A DNA stretch of 64,000 nt from Alcaligenaceae bacterium (GTDB taxonomy: Bacteria; Pseudomonadota; Gammaproteobacteria; Burkholderiales; Burkholderiaceae_B): NCBI GenBank assembly GCA_013416485.1, contig JACCEO010000002.1, positions 62,001-126,000 of the forward strand, read 5' to 3'. Of this stretch, positions 40,041-53,485 are shown piece by piece (the stretch's first letter is position 1; each line of letters starts with the position of its first letter). A program made the translations under genes and the position numbers. The notes beneath the pieces were generated by a model. That model saw only the letters and a list, made by a program, of their open reading frames with translations. It had not been told where the DNA came from and ran no database searches.

Positions 40041-41828
40041 TTATCTGCGACGTGCTGCAGGCAAGTCGGTGCAACTACCATCGGCAGCAGCTGCTGCCAT
40101 ACCGACTGACTCGCCCAAGGTGGGGTGCGGGTGTATGGTTTTGCCGATATCAACAGAGTCAGCACCCATTTCTATCGCCAGCGCCACTTCACTGATTAAA
40201 TCGCCAGCCCCCGTACCTACGATGGCACCACCCAATATACAGTTGGTAGTCTCGTCGAAAAGCAGCTTAGTAAAGCCTTCGTCGCGGGTATTTGCAATGG
40301 CACGCCCTGATGCTGCCCAAGGGAAGACCCCTTTGCGCACAGCGATGCCATCTTTCTTGGCTTGGTCTTCGGTTAGACCTACCCAAGCGACCTCTGGATT
40401 GGTATATGCCACCGAAGGAATGACGCGCGCGTCAAAATGGCTTTTCTGACCGGCAATAACCTCAGCTGCCACATGTGCCTCATGAACGGCTTTATGTGCC
40501 AACATGGGCTGACCCACAATATCGCCTATGGCATAGATATGCGGCACGTTGGTACGCATTTGACTATCAACGTTGATAAAGCCTCGGTCAGTGACTGCAA
40601 TTCCCGCTTTTTCAGCATCCAGAGACAAGCCATTGGGCAAGCGTCCAACAGCTTGCAAGACAAGATCGTAGCGTTGGGGCTGTGCAGGGGCGTTTTTGCC
40701 TTCAAAAGTAACCCATATGCCGTCTTCACGCGCCTCGGCACCGACGGTTTTTGTGTCTATCATGACATGATCAAAACGCCCAGCGTTGTAGCGTTGCCAG
40801 ACTCTGACCAGGTCACGATCGGCACCCTGCATAAGACCATCTAGCATTTCAACAACGTCTAGGCGAGCACCCAAGGACGAATAGACCGTACCCATTTCCA
40901 GGCCAATGATACCGCCACCCACGATCAGCATTTTCTTGGGAATGCTGGCCAGTTCCAGTGCCCCAGTAGAGTCAACGATACGGGGATCATCAGGGAAAAA
41001 AGGCAACTTAACAGAACGACTACCCGCTGCAACAATAGCGGAATTAAAACGTATGGTGCGAACCTGCCCTTCATCATTAGTGACGCTGACATGATTAGGG
41101 TCCACAAAACGACCATAGCCTGTGATGACTTCGACTTTACGTCCTTTGGCCATAACCGCCAGGCCACTGGTCAATTTATCAACCACGTTGTTTTTGTGGG
41201 CTCGCAGTTTGTCTAGGTCAATGTTAGGAACGCCAAAGGCAATACCGTGATCCGACATGGATTGTGCCTCGTCCAAGACCGCTGCAGTATGTAGCAAAGC
41301 CTTAGAGGGGATACAACCTACGTTCAAGCATACGCCACCTAATGTAGCATAACGTTCAACCAGCACGACCTTCAAGCCTAGATCAGCAGCACGAAATGCA
41401 GCGGAATAACCACCAGGGCCTGCCCCCAAGACCAGTACATCGCACTGCACATCGGCGGTACCAGAGTAGGTACCAGCAGCCACAGCCGCAACGGGTGTAG
41501 CCGCTGGTGCACTGGCAACTGGCGTTACTGTTACTAAGGGTTCCGCTGTAGCAGCTGCTGCCGCTACAGGTACTGACTTCGCCGATACTTGATCGGAGTC
41601 AATCTGGACAATCGCCGAACCCTCGGTGACCTTGTCGCCCATTTTTACCAATATTGCTTTCACCACACCAGCTTGGCTGGCAGGGATCTCCATAGAGGCT
41701 TTATCGGACTCTACAGTAATTAAGCTTTGTTCTGCCTTGATGACGTCACCTACCGCCACCAAGATCTCAATGACATCCACTTCAGCGACATCACCGATAT
41801 CAGGCACATTCAATTCTATCGTACTCAT
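40041..41828 (-). CDS. lpdA: Dihydrolipoamide dehydrogenase with N-terminal lipoyl domain
   Basis: The 595-residue E3 subunit of pyruvate dehydrogenase reoxidises dihydrolipoyl groups with NAD. A lipoyl domain comes first (Lys43 in [10 protein letters not shown]), then an Ala/Pro/Val linker (about 82-122), then the flavoprotein with GAGPGG at 135-140 and the redox pair C167/C172 in [18 protein letters not shown] near the C-terminus carries the catalytic His. A lipoyl-E3 fusion is known in Neisseria and other betaproteobacteria. Last gene of the PDH operon, with AAGGAG before the ATG and a terminator after it. Confidence 0.95.
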
Positions 41829-41839
41829 GCAGAATCTCC

Positions 41840-43186
41840 TTAGAGGGCTATGCGGCGGAAGTCGGACAGCAAGCTACCTAGATAGGCATTAAAGCGTGCT
41901 GCGGCAGCACCATCTATGACCCTGTGGTCAAAAGATAGCGACAACGGCAACATCAGGCGAGGTTGGAATTTTTTACCATTCCAGACCGGCTGTATTGCAG
42001 AGCGCGACACCCCTAAAATAGCCACTTCCGGGGCATTAATAATAGGCGTAAACGACGTACCGCCTATGCCACCTAACGATGAAATCGTAAAACAACCACC
42101 TTGCATCTGGGTAGGCGATAGTTTGCCACTACGTGCCAACCCTGCCAACTCTGCCATTTCTGCTGCCAGCTCGGCCACGCCTTTTTTATCGGCATCACGT
42201 ATTACAGGAACTACCAAGCCATTGGGTGTATCGGCTGCAAAGCCTATGTGGTAATACTGCTTAAGTATGAGCTGATCGCCATCCAAGGACGCATTGAATT
42301 GCGGGAATTTTTTTAATGCGGCTACCACGGCTTTAATTAAGAAAGCCAACATAGTGACTCTGGCCCCGTCTTTGCCTTGCTCTTTGTTCAAAGTGACCCG
42401 CAAGTCTTCCAAGTCGGTGATATCGGCCACATCGTTATTGGTGACGTGAGGGATCATGACCCAATTGCGATGCAGATTGGCCCCCGATATTTTCTGTATG
42501 CGTGACAAAGGCTGAGTTTCAATCTCACCAAACTTGGTGAAATCCACTTTGGGCCAACCCAGCACGGTAAAGCCACCATCGACACCAGCACCCACTGCTG
42601 TGCCGGTCCCAGTTGCCAGAGACTGCTTCACAAACTGGCGTACATCATCCAGGGTTATGCGTTGTTTGGCACCCGAACCACTGACCAAGTTTAGGTCAAC
42701 GCCCAGCTCGCGGGCGAACTTGCGTACCGATGGCGACGCATGGGGTAAGTTACGTAAAGGCACAGCTGCATCGGCATAAGCGGCTGTTGGTGAACTGCGT
42801 TCTGGCATAGGCTCTGTTACGACGGTAGCAGCCGCTGTGGCCACAGGCGCCGGCATGGCAGCTGCAACCACTGGTGCTACGGCTTCCACCTTTGCTTGCG
42901 CAGGAGCAGCAGCTGCCGGAGCAGTAGCAGACGGCGTGTCATCAACCTGGGCTAGTACAGACAATATCGTAGAGCCTTGCTTGATCTTGTCACCAACTTT
43001 CACCAGTAATGACGTTACTGTGCCAGCATTAGTTGCAGGAATTTCCATAGATGCCTTTTCAGACTCCACGGTGATCAGGCTTTGCTCTTTATTGATCTGG
43101 TCGCCCACAGCAACCAAGACTTCGATGACCTCGACCTCGTCAAAATCACCTATGTCCGGAACCTTGATATCTAGTGTTGTGCTCAT
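41840..43186 (-). CDS. aceF: Pyruvate dehydrogenase E2, dihydrolipoyl acetyltransferase
   Basis: The 448-residue core subunit transfers acetyl to CoA. It has one lipoyl domain (Lys44 in [10 protein letters not shown]), an Ala/Pro/Val linker, a peripheral-subunit-binding domain near residues 145-185 ([16 protein letters not shown]), a second linker, and the catalytic domain ending with His421 and Asp425 in DHRVIDG. E. coli has three lipoyl domains in E2; here there is one, with another on E3. Those two domains are close paralogues. Confidence 0.95.
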
Positions 43187-43198
43187 GTTGTGATTCCC

Positions 43199-45907
43199 TT
43201 AAGCGTGATGCGGGTTAGCCTTATCAGGATTGATACCGTATTTTTTGATCGCTTCTGATACCTTAGATAGGGGTAATTTGCCCTCGTCGGCCAGACTACG
43301 TAAAGCGGCTAGCACCACGAAGTGACGATCTATCTCAAAGTGCTCACGCAGTTTGCTACGGAAATCGGAGCGACCATAACCATCGGCACCCAATACTTTC
43401 AGTGAACGCCCGTGTGGAACAAAAGGACGTATCTGATCGCCAAACGCCTTCATGTAATCCGTGGACACCACGATAGGACCTGTAGTCTGGTTTAGCTGCT
43501 GTGTGACATAAGGCAATGGCGCATTGGTATCTTCGGGATGCAACATAGAATAACGCTCGCAATCCATACCATTGCGTCGCAACTCAGTGAAACTGGTTAC
43601 GCTCCAGACATCTGAACCTATGCCCCAGTCTGTGCTTAGCAGATCTTGAGCGGCAATGACTTCACGCAGTATGGTGCCAGAGCCCATTAACTGCACACGC
43701 AAGGCCGTTTCTTCTGTGGATTTAAATTTGTACATGCCACGTATGATGCCTTCCTCGTCGCCAGGCGTCAGTCCTGGCTGCGGGTAGTTTTCATTCATGA
43801 CAGTAACGTAGTAGAAAACGTTTTCTTGATTTTCCACCATACGCTTCAAGCCGTCTTGAATAATCACAGCTAGCTCATGCCCGAATGTAGGGTCATAGGA
43901 TACGCAGTTCGGTATCAAAGAGGACTGGATATGGCTATGACCGTCTTCGTGCTGCAAACCTTCGCCGTTCAAAGTAGTGCGCCCTGCTGTACCGCCCAGC
44001 AAGAAACCACGTGCCTGCATATCACCTGCAGCCCATGCCAGATCGCCCACACGCTGGAAGCCGAACATCGAGTAGTAGATGTAAAACGGAATCATGATGC
44101 GGTTGTTCGTGGAATAGGAAGTCGCTGCCGCTATCCAAGAACTGAAGCCGCCTGCTTCGTTAATACCTTCCTGCAGCAATTGACCATCGGCGGACTCGCG
44201 ATAGTACATTACCTGTTCTTTATCAACTGGAGTGTATTTCTGGCCCTCTGGGGCATAAATACCAATTTGGCGGAACAAGCCTTCCATACCGAAAGTACGG
44301 GACTCGTCAACCAATATAGGGACTACACGTTCGCTAAGGGTTTTATCACGAAGTATTTGGTTGATGATGCGCACAAAAGACTGGGTGGTGGAAATTTCAC
44401 GACCTTCGGCAGTGGGTTCCAACACGGCTTTAAATACATCAAGTTCAGGCGTAACCAGATGTTCGTCAGCACGTGTACGACGCTTAGGCAGATAACCACC
44501 CAAGGCTTTGCGGCGTTCATGCAAGTACTGCATTTCCGGAGAATCATCTGCCGGTTTGTAATAAGGCAGGTCTTGCAGTTTGTCGTCGGGTACGGGGATA
44601 TTGAAACGATCGCGGAATGCACGTATATCGTCCATGTCCAGTTTCTTTTGCTGGTGGGTTGGGTTCTTGGCCTGGCCTGTGTGACCCATGCCATAGCCTT
44701 TAATGGTTTTGGCTAGGATAACAGTGGGCTGGCCCTTGTGCTTGGTGGCGGCATCGAAAGCGGCAAATACCTTGTGGGGATCATGACCACCACGGTTCAA
44801 ACGCCAGATATCTTCGTCGCTCATGCGGCTGACCATTTCCAGTAACTTGGGGTGCTTGCCAAAGAAATGTTCACGCACATACTTGCCATCGTTCGCTTTG
44901 TACGCTTGGTACTCACCATCGACAGCTTCTTCCATGACACGACGCAATATGCCTTCTTTGTCACGTGCCAGCAAAGGATCCCAATAACCACCCCAAATCA
45001 ACTTGATCACATTCCAACCGCTACCACGGAAATCGCCTTCCAATTCCTGGATGATTTTACCGTTACCACGTACGGGGCCGTCCAACCTTTGCAGGTTGCA
45101 GTTAATGACAAAAATCAGGTTATCAAGCTTTTCGCGCGACGCCAAGCCTATTGCACCCAAGGACTCCGGTTCGTCCATTTCACCATCACCGCAAAACACC
45201 CAGACCTTGCGGTTACTGGTGTCGGCAATACCTCGGGCATGCAAATACTTCAGGAAGCGCGCTTGATAGATCGCCATCATAGGGCCTAAGCCCATAGATA
45301 CCGTGGGAAACTGCCAGAATTCTGGCATGAGTTTCGGGTGGGGATAAGACGGTATGCCCTTACCGTCAACTTCCTGACGGAAGTTATCCAATTGTTCGTT
45401 GGTCAGACGGCCTTCCAGCCATGCTCTGCCATAGATACCCGGTGAAGAGTGTCCTTGAAAATACACCAGATCGCCGCCATGATCTGGCGTTTCGGCATGC
45501 CAGAAGTGGTTTTGACCACAACCTATCATGGTAGCCAACGAAGCGAAGGAAGCGATATGGCCACCCAGATCGCCACCATCAGCAGGTTGATGGCTATTCG
45601 CCTTCACTACCATTGCCATCGCGTTCCAGCGCACATAAGAACGCAAGCGTTCTTCCAGCACTAAATCACCTGGATGCGCAGGTTCCAGCCCTGGCGGTAT
45701 GGTATTGACGTAAGCCGTATTAGGAGAAAATGGAATGTGGGCGCCCGAACGACGCGCCAAATCAATTAAGCGTTCCAAAAGGAAGTGAGCACGCTCTGGG
45801 CCCTCACGATCCAGAACGGCTTCTAGAGCTTCCAGCCACTCTTGGGTTTCTAAGGCTTCATCAACTGATGCACTGGACGAAGTGTTTACTTGATCAAGAG
45901 AGGACAT
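43199..45907 (-). CDS. aceE: Pyruvate dehydrogenase E1, homodimeric
   Basis: The 902-residue thiamine diphosphate enzyme decarboxylates pyruvate and acetylates E2. The cofactor motif runs from FCGDGEMDEPES to INCNLQRLDGPV. It is the alpha2-type E1 of Gram-negative bacteria. An AGGAG ribosome site lies before the ATG. It heads the aceE-aceF-lpdA operon (gaps of 12 and 11 bases) and is divergent from a two-component system over 255 bases. No pdhR-type GntR regulator gene is adjacent. Confidence 0.96.
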   Translation of the reverse strand: MSSLDQVNTSSSASVDEALETQEWLEALEAVLDREGPERAHFLLERLIDLARRSGAHIPFSPNTAYVNTIPPGLEPAHPGDLVLEERLRSYVRWNAMAMVVKANSHQPADGGDLGGHIASFASLATMIGCGQNHFWHAETPDHGGDLVYFQGHSSPGIYGRAWLEGRLTNEQLDNFRQEVDGKGIPSYPHPKLMPEFWQFPTVSMGLGPMMAIYQARFLKYLHARGIADTSNRKVWVFCGDGEMDEPESLGAIGLASREKLDNLIFVINCNLQRLDGPVRGNGKIIQELEGDFRGSGWNVIKLIWGGYWDPLLARDKEGILRRVMEEAVDGEYQAYKANDGKYVREHFFGKHPKLLEMVSRMSDEDIWRLNRGGHDPHKVFAAFDAATKHKGQPTVILAKTIKGYGMGHTGQAKNPTHQQKKLDMDDIRAFRDRFNIPVPDDKLQDLPYYKPADDSPEMQYLHERRKALGGYLPKRRTRADEHLVTPELDVFKAVLEPTAEGREISTTQSFVRIINQILRDKTLSERVVPILVDESRTFGMEGLFRQIGIYAPEGQKYTPVDKEQVMYYRESADGQLLQEGINEAGGFSSWIAAATSYSTNNRIMIPFYIYYSMFGFQRVGDLAWAAGDMQARGFLLGGTAGRTTLNGEGLQHEDGHSHIQSSLIPNCVSYDPTFGHELAVIIQDGLKRMVENQENVFYYVTVMNENYPQPGLTPGDEEGIIRGMYKFKSTEETALRVQLMGSGTILREVIAAQDLLSTDWGIGSDVWSVTSFTELRRNGMDCERYSMLHPEDTNAPLPYVTQQLNQTTGPIVVSTDYMKAFGDQIRPFVPHGRSLKVLGADGYGRSDFRSKLREHFEIDRHFVVLAALRSLADEGKLPLSKVSEAIKKYGINPDKANPHHA

Positions 45908-46001: not shown

Positions 46002-46162
46002 CTAGGCATAGAACCCTATACCCTGTTGGTCGCTGTACTCATTCTAGGAAAGACCCAGAGGATATTCAAGCAATATTTCATTTTATGATATGGTTTTTCA
46101 TAATGCGGGAAGCGCCCATTCCTGTAAGGGTCTAAAATGGCGGACACACTTTGTTTATTGTT

Positions 46163-47920
46163 ATGGCGAACCACTCTAAAAAATCTCTGATTCCCACAAC
46201 CTTCTATGAACAGGCGCACCAGAACCGTCGCGGTCTCTACTGGTTAACGCCGGCCGTTGTGTTGGTGCTATATTTGTGCGTTATGGGCGCTTTCATATGG
46301 CTACAACGCTTGCACAATGACAGTGTGATGTTTGTGACCATCGATCAGGAAACACGTCAGCAACGCCTCATGATGGTCGTCGTTGCCCTGTCCTTCGTGA
46401 TCGTTCTTAGCCTGTTAGCTTTATGGCGGTATACGCGGTTTCGTACCCGCGCCGAAGCAGCCTTAATTGCCGAGACCGGCTTTCGACGGGCTATGGAAAA
46501 CTCTATGTCTACTGGCATGCGGGTATTCGACATGCAAGGCCGTATCGCTTACGTCAATCCAGCCTTCTGCCGCATGATAGGCTGGAATGAAGCCGACCTT
46601 ATCGGCCGTACCACCCCCTTCCCTTATTGGTTACCCGGTCGTTATACCCAACACCAGGAAACTCTGGACCTACTGCTGTCTGGGCGTACGCCAAGTAGCG
46701 GCTTAGAAGTAGAAGCTCAACGTCGTGATGGCTCACGTTTCACGGCTCGCATGTACGTCTCGCCCCTGCGTGATCCCAATGGCGAACAAATCGGTTGGAT
46801 GACATCCATGACCGATATTACCGAGCCCAAACGTATACGCGAAGCGCTCACAGCCGCTCATGAACGCTTTATGACCGTACTGGAAGGTTTAGATGACGCC
46901 ATTTCTGTTGTCGCCGATACCCCTGAAGGTTTGGAACTGCTATTCGCGAACCGCACTTATCGTCGTTTTTTTGGCGCCCAGTCCAGTGGCCACGGCGAGC
47001 TATTAGGTGGACGTTTAGGGCGTTTTACAGATGAAACTGTAGAAACATTTTCAGAATCCGCACAACGCTGGTTTGAAGTTCACCACCGTATACTGGCCTG
47101 GACAGACGGCAGGCGAGTGCGACTGCAAGTGGCTCGCGACATTACCGAAAGACGTACTCACGAAGCCGCATCACGGCTACAACAGGAAAAGATCCAGCTA
47201 ACCAGCCGCTTAACTACTATGGGTGAAATGGCGTCTTCATTGGCTCACGAACTTAATCAACCCTTAACGGCAATCAGCAACTACAGCATGGGTGCCGTCG
47301 CCATGCTTAAATCTGGCAACGCCGACCCCGACCGGTTGCTGCAAGCACTAGAAAAAGCCGCTCAACAAGCCGAACGGGCGGGCAAAATCATTAGCCGAAT
47401 ACGCGAATTTGTAAAGCGTAGCGAACCGCGGCGTCAAACGGTGCCTATTACACGCATACTAGATAACGCCATAGGCTTTGCCGACATCGACGCCTATAAA
47501 CACCAAATTGACATTCAAAAGCACTTACCTGATCCCTTGCCTGATGTAGTCGCTGACCCCATCTTAATAGAGCAAGTGTTGCTAAACCTATTGAAGAATG
47601 GAATAGAAGCGATGGAAAGTAGCGACTACCCTACCCTGCATGTGGTTGTTACTGACCAAGGACCATTAATCGAGATTGCCGTAGTCGATCGCGGCCACGG
47701 GCTACGCAATCCAGAACGTCTGTTCGAACCGTTTTACAGCACCAAGTCCGAAGGGCTGGGCATGGGGCTGAATATTTGCCGTACTATTATTGAGTCTCAT
47801 CATGGTCGGCTTTGGGCCGACGAAAACCCAGATGGTGGCACTATTTTCCGTTTCACTTTGCCCCGTGCGGCGCCAACAGCGTCAAACGTGACAACGAATA
47901 CCCAGGAGTTCCCTGCATGA
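46163..47920 (+). CDS. PAS-domain membrane histidine kinase
   Basis: The 585-residue sensor has two membrane helices (about residues 30-48 and 68-88) separated by only about 20 residues, so it lacks a real periplasmic sensor domain. A PAS domain follows (about 105-225, AYVNPAFCRMIGW), then a second degenerate PAS-like region (about 235-345). The H-box MASSLAHELNQPLTAISNY has His362; N, G1 and G2 boxes (LLNLLKNGIEAM, GLGMGLNICRTII) are intact. The H-box resembles the FixL/DctB group. The ATG at 46163 is used; a TTG lies four codons earlier. The signal is unknown. Confidence 0.88.
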   Translation: MANHSKKSLIPTTFYEQAHQNRRGLYWLTPAVVLVLYLCVMGAFIWLQRLHNDSVMFVTIDQETRQQRLMMVVVALSFVIVLSLLALWRYTRFRTRAEAALIAETGFRRAMENSMSTGMRVFDMQGRIAYVNPAFCRMIGWNEADLIGRTTPFPYWLPGRYTQHQETLDLLLSGRTPSSGLEVEAQRRDGSRFTARMYVSPLRDPNGEQIGWMTSMTDITEPKRIREALTAAHERFMTVLEGLDDAISVVADTPEGLELLFANRTYRRFFGAQSSGHGELLGGRLGRFTDETVETFSESAQRWFEVHHRILAWTDGRRVRLQVARDITERRTHEAASRLQQEKIQLTSRLTTMGEMASSLAHELNQPLTAISNYSMGAVAMLKSGNADPDRLLQALEKAAQQAERAGKIISRIREFVKRSEPRRQTVPITRILDNAIGFADIDAYKHQIDIQKHLPDPLPDVVADPILIEQVLLNLLKNGIEAMESSDYPTLHVVVTDQGPLIEIAVVDRGHGLRNPERLFEPFYSTKSEGLGMGLNICRTIIESHHGRLWADENPDGGTIFRFTLPRAAPTASNVTTNTQEFPA

Positions 47921-48540
47921 CTACACTTCAAGCAACCAGCACCATTTTCATCGTTGATGACGACGAGGCAGTACGCGACTCATTGCGCTGGCTACTTGAG
48001 GCTAATGGCTATCGTGTCAAAAGCTTCAGCGGCGCCGAAGAGTTCCTAGGCTCTTATGACCCGGATCAAATTGGTGTACTTATTGCCGACGTACGCATGC
48101 CTGGTATGAGCGGACTGGAACTACAAGAGGCCCTAATAGCTCGCCAAGCTCCTTTACCTATCGTGTTCATCACAGGTCATGGCGATGTACCTATGGCTGT
48201 TTCCACCATTAAAAAAGGCGCTGTCGATTTTCTTGAAAAGCCGTTTAATGAAACCGATTTGCGCGCCATTGTGGCTCGCATGATGGATCAGGCCACAGAA
48301 CGCTTCAGTCAGGCTCAAGCACAAAAAGATCACCAAGCCATACTTAGCCGCTTGACCGCGCGTGAACAGCAAGTGCTGGAACGCATAGTGGCCGGTCGCC
48401 TAAACAAGCAAATTGCTGGTGACCTAAACATCAGTATCAAAACCGTGGAGGCCCATAGGGCCAATATCATGGAAAAACTCGAGGTCACTACAGTGGCCGA
48501 TCTTATGAAAATAGCCCTTACCCACGAGGCCACCGCATGA
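47917..48540 (+). CDS. FixJ/NarL-type response regulator
   Basis: The 207-residue regulator has a receiver domain with the acidic pocket D14-D16, phospho-acceptor Asp58 in [11 protein letters not shown] and Lys in LEKPFN, then a LuxR-type helix-turn-helix ([15 protein letters not shown] to [14 protein letters not shown]). It overlaps the kinase stop as ATGA, so the two are made together and are surely cognate. The closest named types are FixJ and TtrR. The target genes are unknown; the aceE promoter is the obvious place to look. Reading frame extends upstream to 47812, but that is inside the kinase. Confidence 0.9.
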
Positions 48541-49394
48541 CTGCAAGGCTAATTGACGGCAAAGTGCTGTCTGACACCATCAAAGATGAAGTACAACAAC
48601 GGGTAAAGATTTTGCAAACGCGTGGCATTACACCAGGCTTGGCTGTTGTATTGGTTGGTGAAGACCCTGCATCTCAAGTCTATGTACGCAACAAAGCAGC
48701 TGCCTGCGAAAAAGCCGGCCTACACTCTAGTGTTATACGCATGCCGGCCGACAGCAGCGAACTTGACCTGCTGGATAAAATTCACCAACTTAACCAAGAT
48801 CCCAGCATCGATGGCATACTGGTGCAATTACCCCTGCCTCCACACATGGATAGCGGTAAAGTCATAGAAGCTATCAGTGCCGAAAAAGACGTGGACGGCT
48901 TTCATATCAGCAACGTCGGTCTGCTCATGACCGGTCGCCCACTGTTCCGCCCTTGTACGCCTTATGGCGTCATGAAGATGCTGGAGTCACAAGATGTGGC
49001 TCTGCGTGGTGCAGAAGCCGTTATCGTTGGCGCCAGTAATATCGTAGGTAAGCCTATGGCAATGCTGCTGCTGGCAGCTGGCGCCACGGTTACCCTGTGC
49101 AACTCTAAAACGCGTGATCTGGCCGCACAAACTCGCCGTGCCGACGTACTGGTAGTAGCCACGGGAAAACCTGAAATGATTACTGGCGACATGATTAAGC
49201 CTGGCGCAGTCGTCATTGACGTAGGCATCAACCGCCGTCCTGATGGAAAGTTAGTCGGCGATGTCCAATTTGATACCGCCCGTCAGGTTGCCGCTGCTAT
49301 CACACCAGTACCTGGTGGTGTAGGCCCCATGACGATTGCCATGCTACTCGTTAACACCCTGGAAGCCGCCGAGCGTCGCGCCGCTGCTACCTGA
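48537..49394 (+). CDS. folD: Bifunctional methylene-THF dehydrogenase/cyclohydrolase
   Basis: The 285-residue enzyme interconverts 5,10-methylene-THF and 10-formyl-THF with NADP. The signatures [14 protein letters not shown] (with the catalytic Lys), PLPPHMD, the cofactor-site [15 protein letters not shown] and [15 protein letters not shown] are complete. The start overlaps the response regulator stop (ATGA), an unusual coupling of a one-carbon enzyme to a two-component system. Confidence 0.96.
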
Positions 49395-49418
49395 ACAATT
49401 TCCGGATAAGTACAACGT

Positions 49419-51482
49419 ATGACGACCAACCCATTACTAGCCCCTGTTGCCGATCTAATTGACTATGCTGCTGTTCGACCCGAGCATATATTGCCTGCCG
49501 TCAGCGAACTCATAGACCAGACTCGCTTGGCGGTAGAGCAGGTAGCTCAACCGACACAGACAGCCACCTGGGCAACCATCATAGAGCCAGTTCAAGATGT
49601 ATCTGAACGCCTATGGCGGGCCTGGTCGGTGGCCGGTCATTTAAATGCGGTCGTCAATACTCCCGAACTGCGTGCGGCCTATAACAGTGGTCTGCCCCTA
49701 ATCACCGAGTTTTCCACTTGGGTGGGGCTACATGCTGGTTTGTACGCACAATACAAGCGTCTGAAAGACAGTCCAGAATTTGCACAGTTACCGGCCGTAC
49801 GTCAACGCATCATAGAGCTGGCCTTACGTGATTTTCGTCTTAGCGGTGTCGAACTGGAAGGCATAGCTCGTGACCGCTATGCCGTTATTTCCGATCAACA
49901 AGCCCAAGCCTCACAAAAGTTTTCTGAGAACGCACTGGATAGCGTTGATCAATGGTCGTTGTTGGTCACTGACGAAAACCGTCTAACGGGCTTACCAGCC
50001 GATGTCGTACAAGCTGCTCAAGACGCAGCAACAGCTAATCAGCAACATGGCTGGCAGTTCAGTCTGAAAATGCCTTGCTACATTCCCGTGATGCAATACG
50101 CCACAGACCGTGAACTACGCCGGGAACTCTATACCGGCTACGCCACCATCGCGTCGGATCAGGCTAACAAACCCGAACTAGATAACTCCGCATTAATAGA
50201 GCAATTATTAGCCTTGCGTGCAGAAGAAGCTCATTTATTGGGCTATAAAAACTTTGCCGAGCTACGCCTGGAAACGCGTATGGCCGACAACGCCGACCAA
50301 GTGCTAGACTTTTTACGAGAACTGGCACAAAAAGCCAAAACCTCAGGCCAACGCGACTTAACCGAACTGCGTGAATTTGCTAACCAGCACCTGAACATTA
50401 GCGACCTTCAACCCTGGGATGTAGCATTTGCATCCGAACGTCTGCGCGAACAACGCTATGCTTACTCTGAAGAAGAGGTAAAACAATACTTCACAGAGCC
50501 ACAAGTTCTGGATGGTTTGTTTCATGTAGCCCGCAGCTTGTTCAAGGTGGATCTGACACCCGCCAATATACCCGTCTGGCACACAGATGTACGCCCCTAT
50601 AGCATCAGTAATCAACAAGGTCAGGTTTTAGGCCACTTGTATCTGGATCTATATGCCCGCCAAGGCAAACAAAGTGGTGCTTGGGTAGACAGTGAGCGCA
50701 ATCGTCGCAAACTACCTAGCAGTGTACAAACGCCAGTGGTGTATCTGACATGCAATTTCACACCGCCCCAGGGGGATAAACCTGCGTTATTAACCCACGA
50801 TGACGTCATCACCCTATTCCACGAGAGCGGCCATGCCTTGCACGCCTTGCTATCGAAAGTAGACGATCCAGGCGCATCGGCATTTTCTGCGGTCGAATGG
50901 GACGCGATAGAACTACCCTCGCAGTTCATGGAAAACTTCTGCTGGGAATGGTCAGTGGTGCAAGCCATGTCAGCCCATATCGATACCGGTGCCCAACTAC
51001 CCAAAACGCTGTTCGATAAAATGGTGGCTGCACGTAACTTCCAAAGCGGCATGCAAATGCTACGCCAACTGGAATTTTCCCTGTTCGACATGTCTATACA
51101 CCAGCAAGCAGGTATGTCCATATCTGACGTCATGAATACACTGGATCAGGTGCGCCAGGAAGTCGCCGTGCTATTCCCACCCGCTTGGCACCGATTCCCA
51201 CATAATTTCTCCCACCTGTTTGCTGGTGGTTACGGTGCAGGCTACTACAGCTACAAGTGGGCTGAAGTGCTATCTGCCGATGCTTATGCGGCCTTTGAAG
51301 AGCAAGCTGAAGCCTTAGGTAATGACGACACATTAGACCCCGTCACAGGACAGCGCTTCATGGATGAGATTTTGGCCGTGGGCGGTTCACGCCCTGCAGC
51401 AGATTCTTTTCGTGCTTTCCGAGGCCGTGATCCATCCATAGATGCTTTGCTGCGCCATAACGGCCTCGCAACAGTTAACTAA
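49419..51482 (+). CDS. prlC: Oligopeptidase A (M3 metallopeptidase)
   Basis: The 687-residue cytoplasmic zinc peptidase degrades short peptides, including cleaved signal peptides. The zinc motif is His468-Glu469-x-x-His472 in FHESGHALH; the third ligand Glu follows in VEWDAIELPSQF. LFAGGYGAGYYSYKWAEVLS near the C-terminus binds substrate. Length matches E. coli PrlC. It is 24 bases after folD. Confidence 0.94.
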   Translation: MTTNPLLAPVADLIDYAAVRPEHILPAVSELIDQTRLAVEQVAQPTQTATWATIIEPVQDVSERLWRAWSVAGHLNAVVNTPELRAAYNSGLPLITEFSTWVGLHAGLYAQYKRLKDSPEFAQLPAVRQRIIELALRDFRLSGVELEGIARDRYAVISDQQAQASQKFSENALDSVDQWSLLVTDENRLTGLPADVVQAAQDAATANQQHGWQFSLKMPCYIPVMQYATDRELRRELYTGYATIASDQANKPELDNSALIEQLLALRAEEAHLLGYKNFAELRLETRMADNADQVLDFLRELAQKAKTSGQRDLTELREFANQHLNISDLQPWDVAFASERLREQRYAYSEEEVKQYFTEPQVLDGLFHVARSLFKVDLTPANIPVWHTDVRPYSISNQQGQVLGHLYLDLYARQGKQSGAWVDSERNRRKLPSSVQTPVVYLTCNFTPPQGDKPALLTHDDVITLFHESGHALHALLSKVDDPGASAFSAVEWDAIELPSQFMENFCWEWSVVQAMSAHIDTGAQLPKTLFDKMVAARNFQSGMQMLRQLEFSLFDMSIHQQAGMSISDVMNTLDQVRQEVAVLFPPAWHRFPHNFSHLFAGGYGAGYYSYKWAEVLSADAYAAFEEQAEALGNDDTLDPVTGQRFMDEILAVGGSRPAADSFRAFRGRDPSIDALLRHNGLATVN

Positions 51483-51494
51483 GGAAATTGAACC

Positions 51495-52085
51495 ATGCGT
51501 AAGTTGTACCAGGGCCTATGCACCCTACTACTGGCCCTGATACTACCTTGGGCCAGCGCACAAACTACCGGTGAAACCGCCTTACACCCTATACGTGGTT
51601 TTTTGCCTGATCTGGAATTTAGTTTGCAAGGCCAAGGCAACAAAACCATCACCGAAAAGGACTTTCAGGGTAAGGTGGTTATGCTGTTTTTTGGCTATGC
51701 CAGCTGTCCAGATATTTGCCCCACTACGATGGCTCAGTTATCGCATGTGGTAGAAAGTCTGGGCACAGATGCTGACAAAGTCAGCATCGTGTTTGTTAGT
51801 GTGGATCCCCACCGCGACACACCAGACATCCTACAAGCTTATGTTGATGCTTTTGACAGCAAAGCCATAGGTTTAACCGGTACGGAAAAGCAAATAGCCA
51901 ATCTAGCACGTCGTTATCGTGTGGCCTATCAAATAGAAAAACCAACGACAAATGATCTAGAGGACTACGAGGTGGCACATAGCCGTGGCGTGTACTTTTT
52001 TGACCAGCAAGGACGCGCACGCTTGCTAGCGGCCGATACTGAAACCTTTGACGTATTAACTAGCGCAGTCAAATCCCTACTGTAG
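51495..52085 (+). CDS. SCO1/SenC-family copper/thioredoxin-like protein
   Basis: The 196-residue protein has a signal peptide (cleavage near residue 22, ASA), then a thioredoxin fold with Cys71 and Cys75 in SCPDICPTT and His162 in EVAHSRG, the three copper ligands of the SCO family. Such proteins help load Cu-A of cytochrome oxidase or act as thiol oxidoreductases. No oxidase genes are near. It follows prlC by 12 bases with an AAGGAA site, so it is the probable end of the kinase-led operon. Confidence 0.87.
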   Translation: MRKLYQGLCTLLLALILPWASAQTTGETALHPIRGFLPDLEFSLQGQGNKTITEKDFQGKVVMLFFGYASCPDICPTTMAQLSHVVESLGTDADKVSIVFVSVDPHRDTPDILQAYVDAFDSKAIGLTGTEKQIANLARRYRVAYQIEKPTTNDLEDYEVAHSRGVYFFDQQGRARLLAADTETFDVLTSAVKSLL

Positions 52086-52090
52086 ACAAG

Positions 52091-53485
52091 CTACACAGCT
52101 GCTAATTCTGCTGCTGCCTGACGTAAGGCAGTACGCAGACCCTCTTCAATTACCGGGTGGTAAAACGGCATACCCAGCATGTCGTTGACCGATAAGTTTT
52201 GCTGCACACACCAAGCTAGCAAATGGGCAATATGTTCCATCGCGGGGCCAGCCATTTCAGCCCCTAATAAACGGCCGTCAATGCTGTCAGCATATAAGCG
52301 CAACATGCCTTGGTTTTTTAGCATGATCCGTGAACGCCCTTGATTCACAAAGCTGACTTCACCAAACACCACACCCGTTTCAGGCAAGTCTTTAAAGTGC
52401 ACACCCACCTGAGCGATTTGAGGATCAGAAAACACCACAGTCAAAGGCGTCCGACGTTGCGGCTCAATGACATCTGGGTAAACGAGCGCATTTGCCGCAG
52501 CAAAATAACCTTCATCGTTCGCTTCGTGCAGTACCGGTAAAGTACCAGTAACATCGCCTGCAATAAACACAGGTGCATCCCCTAGCTGCAGAGTCAATAA
52601 ATTAATGCTTGGCCAACCTTGTTCATCTATTGCGATAGTCGTATTTTCCAAACCCAGTGCATCTAGATTAGGACGACGACCAGTGGCAACCAATACATAA
52701 TCCACAACTTCTGTAGATAGCTTTCCATCATTAGATTTCAAGACAGCATGGACTTCATCACCCTTCAGCGCCACACTATCAACAATCGTTTCTAGGCGTA
52801 TATCCATTTCTTTTTGAAAAGCTAAGCGTGCACTGGCTGCCACTTTAGGATCACTGATACCGCCCAATCTAGCGCTGCGATTAACTAGGCAGACTTTGAC
52901 CCCTAAGCGAGTTAACGCTTGGCCGATTTCCAATCCTATAACGCCTGAACCCACCACCAATACACGGCGTGGCAGAGTCTGCCAATCGAATACATCGTCA
53001 TTAATTAGTACACGCTGGCCCAACGCGCTGTAGATATCAGGTACCACAGGCGAAGATCCTGTCGCAATGACCACGCTGTTGGCATGAATTTGTGTATGAT
53101 CATCGACCTGCAAAACGGTATTGGCAAGAAAACGTGCATAACCGCGGATTTTATCGGTCTCAGGGATGGCAGCAATGCTGTCCAACACAAAACCAACAAA
53201 ACGGTCACGCTCATTGCGCACCCTGGCCATGACACGTTCACCATCGATATGTATCTTGCCCAAGACTTCAACACCAAATTCAGGGGCTATGCCTATGCCA
53301 TGCGCGGCATCGGCAGCCGCTATTAACAACTTGGATGGCATACAGCCCACTCTGGCGCAGGTGGTCCCATAAGGGCCACCTTCTATCAGTAAAGCTTTTT
53401 TTCCGGCTTTTTTCACTGCCTTATAAGCCGCCATGCCAGCCGTTCCCGCGCCAATAATTGCCACATCTGTGTTTAACTGCTGCAT
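52091..53485 (-). CDS. Dihydrolipoamide dehydrogenase-like flavoprotein
   Basis: The 464-residue pyridine nucleotide-disulfide oxidoreductase has the FAD motif GAGTAG near residue 12, the redox pair C43/C48 in TTCARVGCMPSK, an NAD-site GSGVIGLEIG, and a C-terminal HPVIEE with the expected His/Glu base pair. The active-site spacing is that of E3, but CARVGC differs from the CLNVGC of the PDH E3 in this window. No lipoyl domain is present and no 2-oxoacid dehydrogenase genes adjoin it, so its partner is uncertain; it could serve another complex or reduce quinones or other disulfides. Confidence 0.82.
   Translation of the reverse strand: MQQLNTDVAIIGAGTAGMAAYKAVKKAGKKALLIEGGPYGTTCARVGCMPSKLLIAAADAAHGIGIAPEFGVEVLGKIHIDGERVMARVRNERDRFVGFVLDSIAAIPETDKIRGYARFLANTVLQVDDHTQIHANSVVIATGSSPVVPDIYSALGQRVLINDDVFDWQTLPRRVLVVGSGVIGLEIGQALTRLGVKVCLVNRSARLGGISDPKVAASARLAFQKEMDIRLETIVDSVALKGDEVHAVLKSNDGKLSTEVVDYVLVATGRRPNLDALGLENTTIAIDEQGWPSINLLTLQLGDAPVFIAGDVTGTLPVLHEANDEGYFAAANALVYPDVIEPQRRTPLTVVFSDPQIAQVGVHFKDLPETGVVFGEVSFVNQGRSRIMLKNQGMLRLYADSIDGRLLGAEMAGPAMEHIAHLLAWCVQQNLSVNDMLGMPFYHPVIEEGLRTALRQAAAELAAV

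Follow-up and report, generated by a model that had tools for sequence, protein, structure and literature searches.

What is a two-component system doing back to back with the pyruvate dehydrogenase (PDH) genes, and does it control them? The question is raised by a stretch of 64,000 nucleotides from an Alcaligenaceae genome (contig JACCEO010000002.1, positions 62,001 to 126,000; hereafter the window), in which a short-form PAS-PAS sensor histidine kinase (46163..47920, plus strand, 585 aa) and a FixJ-type response regulator (47917..48540, plus strand, 207 aa) diverge from aceE. A first-pass annotation of this DNA had mentioned similar neighbourhoods in other Burkholderiales, with no assigned function. 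The family proves to be a known one, here in an unusual, cut-down form, and the neighbourhood is real and conserved. On the basis of synteny, a regulator tree and residue mapping, the pair probably represents the Burkholderiales branch of the PDH-linked AccSR/BphPQ family, at the locus called FixLJ in the Burkholderia cepacia complex (Bcc), and in a trimmed Alcaligenaceae form.

A probable AccSR/BphPQ system beside pyruvate dehydrogenase

The available text of PMC6456745 describes AccS as phosphorylating AccR, a repressor in carbon catabolite control, and BphQ as governing catabolite repression in Acidovorax KKS102; it places most accSR-like genes near ace genes and reports BphP-type relatives in Burkholderiales without PAS-1. 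Two features of AccSR/BphPQ loci recur in the window, where the kinase gene lies directly upstream of the regulator gene and aceEF-lpd lies alongside. The window kinase has two cytoplasmic PAS domains (Pfam and structural model), which is the BphP type without PAS-1, and its long homologues fit the published BphP layout of a periplasmic domain followed by two PAS domains.

The link to Burkholderia FixLJ comes from three sides. In B. cepacia (L091) and B. puraquae (L089) the pair occupies the aceE-folD position. A tree of regulators puts the window and B. cepacia sequences in one clade (34 of 50 rows, Shimodaira-Hasegawa-like approximate likelihood ratio test 94), with S. meliloti FixJ and StyR outside it, the rooting branch being weak (78). 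Additionally, residues Gly345, Arg347 and Trp439, given for B. dolosa FixL in the available text of PMC8406202, agree with the B. cepacia kinase beside aceE at just one offset of the 201 tried. Bcc FixLJ is described as answering low oxygen (PMC5234846, available text), and the FixLJ genes of B. cenocepacia H111 showed fewer insertions under anoxia, below the threshold of that study (PMC9104464, available text). The supposed lack of an assigned function thus does not stand: the family is published as AccSR/BphPQ with its ace linkage, as far as the available text of PMC6456745 goes, and Bcc FixLJ maps to the same locus. Within the search terms used, we found no paper that names FixLJ together with AccSR or BphQ. 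A plain FixLJ annotation of the window pair was considered and is ruled out by NCBIfam cut-offs, tree position and residue checks; the kinase scores 241.5 bits against the FixL equivalog (cut-off 850) and the regulator 222 bits against FixJ (cut-off 255), the B. cepacia scores being 211.3 and 234.6 bits.

To learn how far the neighbourhood is conserved, we scanned named genomes with the regulator alignment and took the best 80 loci, a selected set, so that the counts apply to the best regulator matches alone. The kinase stands beside the regulator in all 80 and aceE diverges from the pair in 75, the kinase frame of the remaining five beginning at most 170 bp from a contig end; a divergent aceE at 75 of 80 loci is far beyond chance, though the set is selected. 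Downstream, folD lies 3' of the pair in 77 loci (L110 is cut; L103 and L127 are without folD) and prlC comes next in 71. Seven of the nine loci without prlC have less than 1.6 kb left, and L087 and L117 have 3.5 and 4.8 kb. A sco match after prlC is found in 18 loci, all of them Alcaligenaceae genera by record title. The spacing between regulator and folD is -4 in 14 of 77 loci, at most 30 bp in 24 of 77 and 3.1 kb at its maximum, and the ATGA overlap with folD is lineage-specific. We also drew an even sample of 150 genomes across the order and fetched 20 of its 21 best non-window regulator matches (G019 was left out); here aceE adjoins the pair in 16 genomes and folD in 11. The survey therefore bears out the conserved neighbourhood that the first-pass annotation had mentioned.

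Of 121 genomes sampled in the window's own family, 111 have the kinase, and the ten without it comprise six genomes of 0.8-0.9 Mb, two of one genus (G159 and G196) and two that are 85-86% complete (G237 and G258). A second arrangement occurs in family f32, where all three sampled genomes carry the pair co-directional behind aceE-aceF-lpdA, with no folD. The link between the pair and PDH thus takes two forms. Since the f32 regulators fall in a neighbouring group of the tree, outside the divergent-PDH clade, one ancient PDH linkage and two separate ones are both possible.

Some individual records stood out during the survey. A 28-kb Diaphorobacter plasmid (L162, NZ_CP080763.1) carries aceF-aceE divergent from kinase-regulator-folD-M3 peptidase-glutaredoxin, the chromosomal block on a plasmid, aceF being truncated where the stretch examined ends. 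A contig of a metagenome-assembled genome titled Akkermansia muciniphila (L134) has a typical Burkholderiales PDH locus, and its label is probably wrong; two further such contigs titled Bordetella parapertussis (L079 and L113) have regulators 75% and 63% identical to the query, and their labels look doubtful.

Several points weigh against the proposed identity. AccS, AccR and BphPQ were likened to the window pair by published description, not by sequence; B. cepacia L091 stood in for the sequence of B. dolosa FixL; and the two B. multivorans positions do not discriminate, as three offsets accommodate them. The pair sits away from aceE in four of the 20 fetched genomes of the order sample. A palindrome that we take to be of the AccR type, used as a motif query, occurs at chance level in the window and in the intergenic regions. 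The redox cysteines are a further such point. According to the available text of PMC6456745, AccS has a periplasmic region, three PAS domains, His681 and Cys694, Cys697 and Cys863; oxidised quinones inhibit its autokinase domain through thiols, and changing Cys697 to Ala abolishes this inhibition. The window kinase has Ser375 at H+13 and Ala378 at H+16, the places of Cys694 and Cys697, and Cys539 at the presumed place of Cys863, so that one of three redox cysteines is kept. Across the aligned rows, a cysteine at H+16 is present in only 10 of 81 long forms, three f32 proteins among these, and is rare in short forms too. The H+13 cysteine is found in 62 of 81 long rows and 2 of 33 short rows, cut proteins and S. 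meliloti FixL being counted among the short ones. By these tallies, loss of the Cys697-type thiol is usual in Burkholderiales, and loss of the Cys694-type thiol marks the window branch. Since AccS with Ala in place of Cys697 escapes quinone inhibition, the window kinase, like most of its relatives, should not be inhibited in that way, and quinone sensing of the AccS kind cannot be assumed for it. Burkholderia L089 has Cys, Thr and Cys at the three places; the f32 kinases have Cys at all three, together with an extra PAS-like stretch in their sequences (L139-L141).

If this identity is right, one PDH-side locus goes by three names and carries three stories, namely quinone-sensing catabolite control (AccSR), organic-acid catabolite control (BphPQ) and oxygen sensing (Bcc FixLJ), the last including a role in cystic-fibrosis infection. 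Viewing them as one locus makes it testable whether the low-oxygen response of Bcc FixLJ is really a response to the quinone pool. The most useful outcomes of the analysis are that three literatures are joined on one locus and that the signal of this branch becomes a testable question.

The trimmed kinase and its candidate signals

A hydropathy scan places two membrane segments of the window kinase near residues 23-51 and 66-91, joined by a short loop, and residues 99-343 were modelled as two PAS folds (AlphaFold2, mean predicted local distance difference test score, pLDDT, 85.5). Among the 97 kinases that we compared, 29 are short, the window kinase included, and 68 are long. Alignment with the long relatives shows that the periplasmic ligand-binding region between the transmembrane helices is absent from the window kinase; the B. 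cepacia kinase has 214 residues more between its first and second transmembrane helices, with the flanking helices aligned. This extra domain, modelled for one long form (L089:7650-8285) at pLDDT 89.8, has dCache-type sensor domains as its nearest solved folds, KinD first. As judged from predicted domain content, most Alcaligenaceae kinases are without the periplasmic dCache domain of their relatives, and this trimmed variant is the new part of the picture. Judged by open frame, the 111 family kinases include 8 long ones, of 779-808 aa, from genera g2 and g130, and one ambiguous case (752). Hydropathy, Pfam and AlphaFold2 all agree with the earlier description of two membrane helices, almost no periplasmic loop and cytoplasmic PAS domains. 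Since the periplasmic domain of the relatives is missing, the signal is probably cytoplasmic or in the membrane, as had been suggested. The trimmed kinase, found in most sampled Alcaligenaceae, amounts to a natural experiment on which sensor parts are dispensable.

Two specific ligands were considered and set aside. For a pyruvate-sensing dCache in the long forms, the best matches are KinD chains, one of them pyruvate-bound (VIA Z 17.2-17.6); a fold in common does not reveal the ligand, and the domain is in any case missing from the window kinase. A KinD-like domain, with a pyruvate complex among the solved KinD structures, may still be called suggestive beside PDH genes. For an FAD-type PAS domain, chains of MmoS and NifL are among the matches of the kinase and of its PASa domain. 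FAD-binding PAS domains are marked by a Trp/Asn pattern, and this was not recognised by eye. The PDB matches of the two-PAS model are a mixture of LOV, heme and flavin PAS proteins, so the model names no cofactor.

Could the window kinase instead be a FixLJ-type heme oxygen sensor, binding heme in PASa through H164 and turned on by low oxygen? Such a sensor would accord with the low-oxygen response of Burkholderia FixLJ (PMC5234846, available text). H164 aligns at, or one residue off, the FixL heme histidine, a histidine occupies this column in 27 of 29 short forms (not in L053 and L076), and FixL structures are among the PASa matches. The FixL heme pocket has a distal arginine, and the window kinase shows no arginine at the aligned place; both equivalog cut-offs are missed, as given above, and such a histidine may be common in PAS domains. 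The histidine is present in 0 of 68 long forms, Burkholderia included, so the Burkholderia oxygen response would need another mechanism. Taken together, these points make a heme oxygen sensor of this type decidedly unlikely.

Family f17, whose short kinases have open frames of about 511-569 aa, represents a second short lineage. Here a histidine is found at the H164 place in 5 of 10 readable short forms (L212 was not read, and two of the ten are also among the 97 kinases) and in none of the 14 long rows, which come from 13 genomes and of which one (L233) has a histidine three residues downstream. Comparing short form with histidine gives only two to three independent contrasts, and a tree-based test finds no statistical significance. 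The aligned Burkholderia rows have Met at the H164 column and a helix without His, which lends no support to the heme pocket predicted for Bcc FixL; a heme site elsewhere in that protein is possible. These patterns could also be read as a swap of signals, in which kinases without dCache (and, in the window branch, without the Cys694-type thiol) carry a histidine in the F-alpha helix of PASa, at or next to the FixL heme position; the Alcaligenaceae form would then be a heme- or ligand-PAS sensor convergent with FixL, and Burkholderia FixL, with no histidine there, a redox or thiol-type sensor, a scheme that we consider unlikely.

The aceE operator and the meaning of the gene order

We then ask whether the regulator acts on PDH. 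The aceE-kinase intergenic region holds a strongly conserved block, consisting of a -10-like element in the putative promoter of aceE (CTAGAAT on the minus strand, 46041..46052) and two 15-bp boxes (46076-46090 and 46096-46110) that form a conserved aceE operator; toward the kinase gene, TCTAAAATG (46131..46139, plus strand) is a possible -10 element of a putative promoter. A box with at most two mismatches to TTTCRYAATRYGRAA, a pattern drawn from the same intergenic regions in which it was counted, occurs in 77 of 92 aceE-kinase intergenic regions versus 1 of 460 shuffles. The boxes are not specific to the two-component system. They stand in tandem, with the same 20-bp spacing, in all three fetched f7 genomes, which lack the pair at aceE; they are weak or absent (3-5 mismatches) in four f10 genomes, and absent (4-6 mismatches) before aceE in all three f32 genomes, which have the pair behind the PDH genes. 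The operator and the two-component system thus come apart both ways.

The box is also found upstream of the isocitrate lyase gene aceA. In a scan of 30 family loci (L171-L200), one of which had no room upstream, all 29 others have it with at most two mismatches, against 3 hits among 145 shuffles. A distance of 21, 63 or 84 bp separates the two best copies in 25 of these 29 loci. An exact tandem pattern fitted to the aceA site of the window genome itself was discarded, for it matched 1 of 41 family genomes, its own. The operator common to aceE and isocitrate lyase points to a separate regulator of the pyruvate and glyoxylate branch, and most likely serves another protein that joins the two. A precedent for such a protein is RccR in Pseudomonas, which joins PDH and the glyoxylate branch via a different motif (PMC5489143, available text). 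The 15-bp box is an inverted repeat common across Alcaligenaceae, and the aceA site of the window genome lies at G000:C48:63521-63556. That genome has one gene of the RpiR helix-turn-helix type (G000:C1:175104), and genes of the GntR type, considered here with PdhR in mind, are present elsewhere in it.

Binding of the regulator at aceE was entertained and dropped, the strongest conserved element having proved independent of the pair on comparison with genomes that have no pair at aceE; the regulator may still affect aceE more weakly or indirectly. The wider proposal of the first-pass annotation, in which aceE, folD, prlC and sco would form one regulator-controlled unit for pyruvate entry, one-carbon flux and oxidase assembly, draws on the tight gene spacing and the conserved divergence from aceE, and the authors of the AccS work also propose a functional link to PDH (PMC6456745, available text). 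It meets with three difficulties: the boxes occur without the pair in f7 and are missing before aceE in f32, sco comes next in only 18 of the 80 best named loci, and at least seven genomes have aceE and folD-prlC adjacent and divergent with no pair between them (prlC is cut in one, and in three of the seven a weaker regulator match lies elsewhere). That the regulator controls aceE is therefore not upheld, and the unit as a whole is highly doubtful. The last finding also means that folD and prlC adjoin PDH regardless of the pair, and the pair is found at aceE without folD, so folD is no special partner. In one genome (G111; L142:4250-6139) the place that the pair holds elsewhere, between folD and aceE, is occupied by a gene for a protein with thiamine pyrophosphate-enzyme and ferredoxin domains that resembles pyruvate oxidoreductases.

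The pair might, on the other hand, simply stand beside PDH through inherited gene order, neither regulating PDH nor co-regulated with it. The persistence of aceE and folD-prlC without the pair, and of the pair at a distance from aceE in 4 of the 20 genomes fetched, would fit this, as would the failure of the AccR palindrome and aceE box comparisons to bring out a shared site. Against it stand the linkage kept in 75 of the 80 best named loci and the second PDH-tied arrangement behind lpdA in f32. We regard inherited order as a serious possibility, if somewhat short of an even one.

For the trimmed member of the AccSR/BphPQ family that we prefer to see in the window, the following course of events may be proposed. 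An inner-membrane kinase without a periplasmic sensor would use its two PAS domains to sense redox or energy state by a sign in the cytoplasm or close to the membrane, autophosphorylate at H362 and pass the phosphoryl group to D58 of the regulator; the phosphorylated regulator would bind promoters elsewhere, tuning carbon use and respiration, and would probably not act through the conserved aceE operator. That the window branch still answers to redox or low oxygen is our inference, as is whatever is said here of its regulon.

Gene content of the locus and comparison with known systems

The kinase (Pfam PAS, HisKA and HATPase_c) runs from an ATG at 46163, a start that agrees with the aligned relative L060, to a TGA stop; besides H362, the predicted phosphoacceptor in HELNQP, its residues of note are H164, S375, A378 and C539. 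The regulator has a Pfam receiver domain containing D58 and a LuxR-type helix-turn-helix. On the same strand follow folD (48537..49394, Pfam FolD), which adjoins aceE also where the pair is absent, a prlC-type M3 oligopeptidase gene (49419..51482, Pfam peptidase M3), whose product has oligopeptidase A as its best NCBIfam match at a score under the cut-off, and, 3' of prlC, sco (51495..52085, Pfam SCO1/SenC). On the minus strand lie aceE (43199..45907), the divergent neighbour of the kinase gene, aceF (41840..43186, by Pfam) and lpdA with a lipoyl domain (40041..41828, by Pfam). Rechecked coordinates give ATGA overlaps between kinase and regulator and between regulator and folD, and gaps of 24 bp before prlC and 12 bp before sco. 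The five-gene layout first described, with its spacings and its divergence from aceE-aceF-lpdA, is thus confirmed from the sequence, and in this lineage the spacing would suit a single unit. The genome comprises 2.78 Mb in 48 contigs with one match to the window kinase at E <= 1e-100, and the nearest named regulators among the matches listed are those of Paralcaligenes, Pollutimonas and Pusillimonas, at 91-92%. A second gene of the dihydrolipoyl dehydrogenase type (52091-53485; NF004939, 670.8 bits, cut-off 435) is convergent with sco.

Set beside the systems already known, the window pair shares with AccSR of Azoarcus sp. CIB a PAS kinase whose gene lies immediately 5' of the regulator gene, a usual place near aceEF-lpd, a simple His-Asp transfer and a cysteine at the Cys863 place (C539). 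AccS differs, as far as its published description is available, in having a periplasmic region, three PAS domains and Cys694/Cys697, whereas the window kinase has no such region, two PAS domains and S375/A378. BphPQ of Acidovorax sp. KKS102 belongs to the ace-linked, AccS-like branch without PAS-1 (PMC6456745, available text), which the long relatives of the window kinase match; the window kinase itself differs in lacking the periplasmic ligand-binding region. Rhizobial FixLJ (S. meliloti, L160) has the same kinase core and regulator type, with a FixJ about 47% identical, yet the window pair stays under both equivalog cut-offs and apart in the regulator tree, and the rhizobial FixL heme-pocket residues examined are not common to the window's group. 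Bcc FixLJ shares the very locus: in B. cepacia and B. puraquae it, too, diverges from aceE, and folD-prlC come after it. Its kinase has 838 aa, a dCache domain, a cysteine at H+13 and no H164; the window kinase, with 585 aa, has neither the dCache domain nor the H+13 cysteine, and does have H164.

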